From the NCBI GenBank assembly GCA_014803765.1, contig JAAVBC010000024.1, positions 1 to 64,000 on the forward strand: a stretch of DNA of 64,000 bases. Direction: 5' to 3'. Made by a program: the position numbers and the translations under genes. The stretch's first letter is position 1; the number at the start of each line of letters is the position of its first letter. The notes under the pieces were generated by a model. The model saw only the letters and a list, made by a program, of their open reading frames with translations, was not told where the DNA came from and ran no database searches. The DNA is from Bacteroides sp. Lineage in GTDB: Bacteria; Bacteroidota; Bacteroidia; Bacteroidales; Muribaculaceae. Shown here one piece after another: positions 38,753-40,965 of the stretch.

Positions 38753-38825
38753 CGGGGTGTAGCGCAGTTGGTAGCGTGCTACGTTCGGGACGTAGAGGTC
38801 GGGCGTTCGAGTCGCCTCACCCCGA
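38753..38825 (+). tRNA. tRNA-Pro(CGG)
   Basis: Acceptor CGGGGTG/CACCCCG, anticodon arm CTACG-TTCGGGA-CGTAG, T-arm GTTCGAGTC. Confidence 0.93.
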
Positions 38826-38833
38826 CAGTGAAA

Positions 38834-39233: not shown

Positions 39234-40571
39234 TCAGACGAGCGAGAAGGCTTTTTTGATGGCATCGACGTGATCGAGCTTTTCCCAAGTGAAGAGCTCT
39301 ACCTCGCGGGTGATGGGTTCACTCTCGTAGCGGGATTTGAAAGTCTTGCTGACTGTCTGAGGCTTTCTGCCGAGATGTCCATAGGCGGAAGTCTCCTTAT
39401 AAATCGGGTTGCGGAGTTTCAGACGCTCTTCTATAGCTTTGGGGCGCATGTCAAAGAGTTCTTCCACCTTTGCTGCTATTTCGGCATCCGATAGGTCGAC
39501 GTTGGATGTGCCGAAAGTATTGATGAAGAGTGATACGGGTTTAGCTACGCCAATCGCATAGGCTACCTGAACAAGCACCTCTCTTGCAACGCCTGCTGCT
39601 ACGAGATTCTTCGCGATGTGACGGCAAGCGTAGGCTGCCGAGCGATCCACTTTCGAGGGATCTTTGCCGGAGAATGCGCCTCCGCCGTGAGCTCCTCTGC
39701 CACCATAAGTATCAACGATAATCTTACGTCCTGTCAGACCCGTGTCGCCATGAGGACCGCCTATTACGAATTTGCCGGTCGGGTTGACATGCAGAATCAG
39801 ATTCTCATCGAAGAGAGCCTGCAGTTCTTCGGGAAGGGATGCCTTCAGACGCGGGATAAGCACTTGCTCTACATCCCGGCGGATAGTAGCGAGCATCTCC
39901 TCATCTGCACGATCCTGAGCTTCCTTAGTGTTATCCAGGGGCAGGATGAAATCATCGTGCTGAGTGGAGACGACGATAGTGTGGATGCGCACGGGACGAT
40001 TATTCTCATCATATTCCACAGTGACCTGGCTTTTTGCGTCGGGACGCAGGTAAGTGGTCAGTTTTCCCTTGCGATAATAAGTCATCTCCTTCTCCTCCCG
40101 GCGGATGTCGGCGAGTTCTGTGAGAAGCTTATGCGAGAGATCGAGAGTTAAAGGCATGTATTCAGCTGATTCATCGACTGCATAACCGAACATCATGCCC
40201 TGATCGCCGGCGCCCTGCAGTTCGAGGGCATCCTTGGAATCATCCTTGCGGGATACGCCGCGATTGATATCGGCAGACTGCTCATGAATTGCAGAGAGAA
40301 TGCCGAGGGAATCGCCGTCGAAGCGATAAGCTCCGCGATTATATCCGATTTCGTTGATGACGTTGCGGATAGTAGCAGGGACATCGACGTAAGCCTCGGA
40401 AGTGACCTCACCTGCAACTACGACCTGTCCGGTAGTGCAAAGTGTTTCGATAGCCACATGGCTTTTGGGGTCGCGCACCAGGAATTCATCAAGGAGCGCA
40501 TCGGAAATGCGGTCGGCGACTTTGTCGGGATGACCTTCCGATACAGATTCAGATGTGAATAGATAGTTCAT
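39234..40571 (-). CDS. metK: S-adenosylmethionine synthetase
   Basis: [61 protein letters not shown]. Confidence 0.97.
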
Positions 40572-40660: not shown

Positions 40661-40698
40661 AAAAAAATAGCATTTCTGGCTGATTGCCGAAAATGCTA
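40661..40698 (-). terminator. Intrinsic terminator in the metK leader
   Basis: Minus strand: tagcatttTCGGCaatcaGCCAGaaatgcta followed by TTTTTTT. Confidence 0.8.
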
Positions 40699-40803
40699 AA
40701 AATTGACTTCATCGAAGATCGGCGCGGAAGCCGACAGGGATTTATCTTTTCAGCCGCAGACTCTGAAAAGGGGAGGGCTGAAGTGAGCAGTTTTTAGCAT
40801 TTT
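40690..40803 (-). promoter_or_regulatory. Antiterminator pairing region between aptamer tail and terminator 5' arm
   Basis: Minus strand AAAAUGCUAAAAA (40803-40791) complementary to UUUUUAGCAUUUU (40702-40690); extended by ACUUCA/UGAAGU. Confidence 0.65.
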
Positions 40804-40840
40804 TTTCGGTGGTTGCAAGCAGCCAAATTTGTCCACCTTT
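40790..40840 (-). ncRNA. SAM-II-like riboswitch aptamer upstream of metK
   Basis: Minus strand GGUGG-ACAAAUUUGGCUGCUUGCAA-CCACC-GAAAAAAAUGCUAAAAAC; matches the remembered SAM-II layout (P1, AUUUG, CUUGCA, 3' GCUAAA). Confidence 0.75.
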
Positions 40841-40965
40841 CTGTTTCCGATACAAAAGTAATACAAAAAATCGGAAAACACTACAAAAAACACCTTTAAG
40901 ATTATGCTATATTCACTGAAAAATGTTAAATTTGAAGATTAAAAGGGGAGATTGAGGGGGATAAC

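Follow-up and report, generated by a model that had tools for sequence, protein, structure and literature searches.

The window, i.e. the whole stretch of 64,000 nucleotides of Muribaculaceae DNA analysed here, carries on its minus strand metK, the gene for S-adenosylmethionine (SAM) synthetase (478.9 bits for a TIGR01034 cut-off of 309.4), directly downstream of an RNA element recognized by cmscan as RF01726, the SAM-II family with "long loops" (Table 1). The match scores 58.7 bits (E 1.1e-8), the gathering score of the family being 44 bits, and spans model positions 1-60, i.e. the full length of the model. The element displays the SAM-II layout, with a P1 stem formed by GGUGG and CCACC and a P2 pseudoknot (UUUGGC/GCUAAA) joining the P1 loop to the 3′ tail, and the gene that follows belongs to methionine/SAM metabolism, the context expected of a SAM-II riboswitch. 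RF01726 was described from Bacteroidetes as a cis-regulatory riboswitch (Weinberg et al. 2010, PMC2864571); across the entire model, the window aptamer agrees with it in sequence, P1, loop and tail, as well as in its Bacteroidetes host, and shows no differences from it, the downstream expression platforms being what the present analysis adds. The covariance-model search thus bears out the original prediction of a SAM-II-like aptamer, with P1 and P2 lying where it had placed them. Judging from its sequence, the leader RNA before metK is very probably a real SAM-sensing switch. Matches of the leader to the Rfam families SpF01, snoR12, snoZ13, RF_site1 and SAM_alpha, each below its own gathering score, were dismissed as chance.

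The Bacteroidetes -7 promoter consensus, TAnnTTTG, is present upstream of P1, and, of 111 family leaders, 103 carry the same motif no more than 120 nt upstream of their aptamer, compared with 7.1 expected from shuffles. The linker between aptamer and terminator had been called unusually long: the distance from the aptamer to the ATG, 221 nt, is indeed on the long side for the genus without being exceptional, since it ranges from 97 to 379 nt in relatives.

Table 1. Coordinates of metK and of the elements of its leader in the window
Feature	Position	Strand	Basis
metK, S-adenosylmethionine synthetase, putative regulated gene	39234-40571	-	TIGR01034
Terminator U-tract, seven T	40661-40667	-	Sequence
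Intrinsic terminator stem-loop (predicted)	40668-40698	-	-13.8 kcal/mol, then TTTTTTT
Terminator loop/3′ segment GCAAUCAGCC, 9/10 complementary to aptamer loop GGCUGCUUGC (40815-40824); role uncertain	40678-40687	-	Minimum-energy fold
Switching strand TTTTTAGCATTTT / UUUUUAGCAUUUU: tail partner (antiterminator) or terminator 5′ arm	40690-40702	-	Complementarity and leader comparison
Linker hairpin region 2	40718-40735	-	Predicted fold
Linker hairpin region 1	40746-40780	-	Predicted fold
SAM-II (long-loop) riboswitch aptamer	40784-40842	-	RF01726 covariance model
Tail AAAATGCTAAAAA / AAAAUGCUAAAAA: contains P2 3′ strand; alternatively antiterminator 5′ strand	40791-40803	-	13-nt perfect complement of 40690-40702
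P1 3′ strand CCACC	40808-40812	-	Covariance model and sequence
P2 5′ strand UUUGGC, in P1 loop	40822-40827	-	Pairs with GCUAAA (40793-40798), one G-U
P1 5′ strand GGUGG (GGTGG in DNA), partner 40808-40812	40833-40837	-	Covariance model and sequence
Bacteroidetes -7 promoter box TACTTTTG (TAnnTTTG), 15 nt upstream of P1	40853-40860	-	Sequence

Two possible partners for one leader strand

An A/U-rich intrinsic terminator stands before metK, as befits a transcriptional expression platform; a simple scan for consensus terminators did not list it. Beyond a gap of 88 nt, the aptamer tail has a perfect 13-nt complement that overlaps the 5′ arm of the terminator, so that the terminator and an antiterminator built with an aptamer strand would be mutually exclusive. 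Dinucleotide shuffling of the leader yielded a perfect inverted repeat of 13 nt or more once in 2000 trials, and a 13-nt stretch complementary to the window tail once in 5000. Every piece of the three-strand arrangement originally put forward is present on the minus strand: P2 with its single G-U pair, the 13-nt tail complement, the terminator overlapping it and the seven T. In constrained folds of the window leader calculated without SAM and with P2 uncounted, the antiterminated fold comes out 10.5 kcal/mol more stable than the terminated one, so that the OFF state would depend on co-transcriptional kinetics and on SAM. In most leaders, a few kcal/mol at most separate the ON fold from the OFF fold, pseudoknot and SAM being again uncounted.

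We compared 31 metK leaders from the window's genus, 24 of which have a detected terminator, with 178 unrelated terminators collected by the same terminator finder from 400 kb of one same-genus genome. The duplex between the tail and the 5′ arm (taken as the arm plus 12 nt upstream) averages -9.6 kcal/mol in the 24 leaders versus -4.2 kcal/mol in the 178 controls, whereas the tail pairs no better with the 3′ half of the terminator in leaders than in controls (-3.6 versus -3.8 kcal/mol). Of the 24 leaders, 21 have the pentamer GCATT within the 5′ arm or immediately ahead of it, as against 4 of the 178 controls, counts that are not independent because the leaders are mutually related and stem mostly from the best-scoring aptamer matches. 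Within the stem, GCATT makes up the 5′ pentamer in 20 of 21 cases, while the bases opposite it on the 3′ side fall into ten types, G-U pairs and mismatches included; a near-invariant 5′ arm facing a drifting 3′ partner is what would be expected if the invariant tail also constrained the 5′ arm. Six same-genus leaders have no GCATT, and do not show the pairing, inside a detected terminator stem. Furthermore, the strict pattern tail-N30-60-GCATT-N8-38-TTTTT was retrieved in 36 of 111 same-genus genomes, of which a few matches may not be riboswitches, and the reversed pattern in none.

Covariation of the three strands, suggested beforehand as a check, turned out to be uninformative as evidence: since the aptamer holds the tail nearly invariant, covariation cannot appear on that strand, and the unequal conservation of the two terminator arms served as evidence in its place. 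Of this check, complementarity held, being conserved well above the control terminators, but covariation is absent from the near-invariant tail strand. The covariance-model match and the complementarity conserved in same-genus leaders nevertheless support the reading of this leader as a SAM-II element with a terminator/antiterminator, and related bacteria conserve the predicted on/off wiring, in which a shared strand would go either into a stop hairpin or into an anti-stop helix.

Distribution and neighbouring arrangements

RF01726 is matched in 368 of 397 same-family genomes, and metK, recognized by a protein motif, lies downstream in 115 of the 122 loci extracted from the family and the order. 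Four near-complete genomes of the window's genus gave no RF01726 match.

In sister genera with short linkers, a complement of the tail, TTAGC(A/G)TTTTTCCA, precedes TGGAAAAATG at the metK start and is complementary to both the aptamer tail and TGGAAAAATG. This strand was noted between aptamer and metK in six individual leaders and in other short-linker leaders. Both pairings, that of the tail with the strand and that of the strand with the start, reach p <= 0.05 against shuffles and overlap by at least 6 nt in 26 of 48 short linkers, which suggests that the sister genera possess a start-codon version of the same switch, freeing or masking the metK start codon. Seven leaders from other genera have a terminator, AATGTTGAAGC...CTTCGACATTTT with a T-run, after SAM-II; an antiterminator was looked for in these other-genera terminator leaders and none was identified.

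As a separate observation, the SAM-II aptamer begins 9-13 nt past a tRNA-Pro (CGG) gene in six same-genus leaders, and three leaders have a tRNA-Pro (CGG) gene followed by a hairpin and a T-run, and then the aptamer. Where the upstream flank was read, TAnnTTTG is found before tRNA-Pro and not between tRNA-Pro and the aptamer. By pattern search, 10 of 111 same-genus genomes have this arrangement, which looks like a joint transcript of tRNA, riboswitch and metK. The window also has a tRNA-Pro (CGG) gene, at 38753-38826 on the plus strand, beyond the 3′ end of metK and on the opposite strand, hence a tRNA-metK link in a different arrangement.

Proposed switch, alternatives and precedents

The locus combines an aptamer match, a gene context, a promoter box and three complementary strands with their conservation among relatives. 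That the RNA binds SAM, that transcription terminates there and which way the control runs are inferred, and we consider it highly likely that the SAM-II riboswitch is a transcriptional OFF switch for metK. Transcription would start a short way before P1. With abundant SAM, the P1/P2 pseudoknot would be stabilized and the tail (GCUAAA) kept on the aptamer loop; the strand UUUUUAGCAUUUU would then be available to pair with its own 3′ arm as the intrinsic terminator, and metK would not be transcribed. When SAM is scarce, the tail would pair with UUUUUAGCAUUUU in a 13-bp antiterminator, the terminator would be blocked and metK read through.

Other explanations differ in how well they account for these features. 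The tail is A-rich and short complements to it are easily found, but its 13-nt complement was so seldom reproduced by shuffling, and GCATT is so concentrated in the leaders relative to the controls, that a mere coincidence in A/T-rich DNA appears hardly credible. It is improbable, although less so, that SAM-II acts on metK translation or mRNA stability while the hairpin is a constitutive, SAM-independent attenuator, as reported for Sinorhizobium meliloti metA, where a terminator follows a translation-controlling SAM-II and no SAM-driven antiterminator was predictable (PMC9373788). The start-codon platform apparently used by sister genera speaks for such a mode of action; however, the tail complement of the window is the terminator 5′ arm and is conserved as such, and the distance separating the aptamer from the ATG makes direct occlusion of the start unlikely.

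A larger refolding, which would extend the OFF-switch model, is a better candidate but still an unlikely one. Here, the loop strand would also pair with the terminator loop and 3′ arm, and the whole aptamer would be consumed. This is the minimum-energy fold of the leader; the duplex of the loop strand with the terminator 3′ half averages -11.0 kcal/mol in same-genus leaders versus -7.4 in controls, and GCAAGC is present in that half in 10 of 24 leaders versus 1 of 178 controls. However, the duplex of the window loop with GCAAUCAGCC amounts to -11.6 kcal/mol and does not go beyond the -12.3 of the strongest 5% of controls, GCAAGC may be nothing more than a GC-closed GCAA tetraloop, two leaders have no obvious match to the loop strand, and the strands pairing with the loop emerge only at the point where the terminator itself is being completed. 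Slightly less doubtful, and offered as a speculation, is a composite proposal: that the terminator is antisense to the aptamer twice (5′ arm to tail, loop and 3′ arm to P1 loop), the SAM-free state dismantling the whole aptamer, and that the tail-complement strand is re-used within one family, as a terminator in the window's genus and as a start-codon mask in sister genera.

The transcriptional OFF switch favoured here has precedents. Proteobacterial SAM-II aptamers followed by intrinsic terminators have been reported (Corbino et al. 2005, PMC1273637; Barrick and Breaker 2007, PMC2258182), the combination being described as a genetic OFF switch in the latter work, and the SAM-II of S. meliloti metZ was predicted in 2022 to terminate upon SAM binding (PMC9373788); the kind of switch encountered in the window was therefore already known. 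The window shares with the proteobacterial systems a pseudoknot aptamer followed by an intrinsic terminator and a predicted OFF response, but differs in phylum and in gene, metK instead of metA/metZ. In the window, the terminator 5′ arm is directly complementary to the aptamer tail, and this complementarity is conserved; S. meliloti metZ may share the layout. The Sargasso Sea metX SAM-II (PDB 2QWY, PMC10907184) has the aptamer class and the pseudoknot fold in common with the window; however, its ribosome-binding site is hidden inside P2, whereas for the window element the predicted means of control is a terminator lying at a distance. Within the open-licence literature, no study of the platform was found for Muribaculaceae riboswitches or for SAM-II upstream of metK in Bacteroidetes.

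The switch class and its use of a terminator were thus known before, and the platform predicted in the window is well supported and conserved. It provides a clear, testable model linking a SAM-II pseudoknot to the termination of metK transcription in gut bacteria. Furthermore, among related genera the same tail is apparently coupled to a terminator in some and to the metK start codon in others, which would make these leaders a natural series in which the outputs change and the sensor stays fixed.
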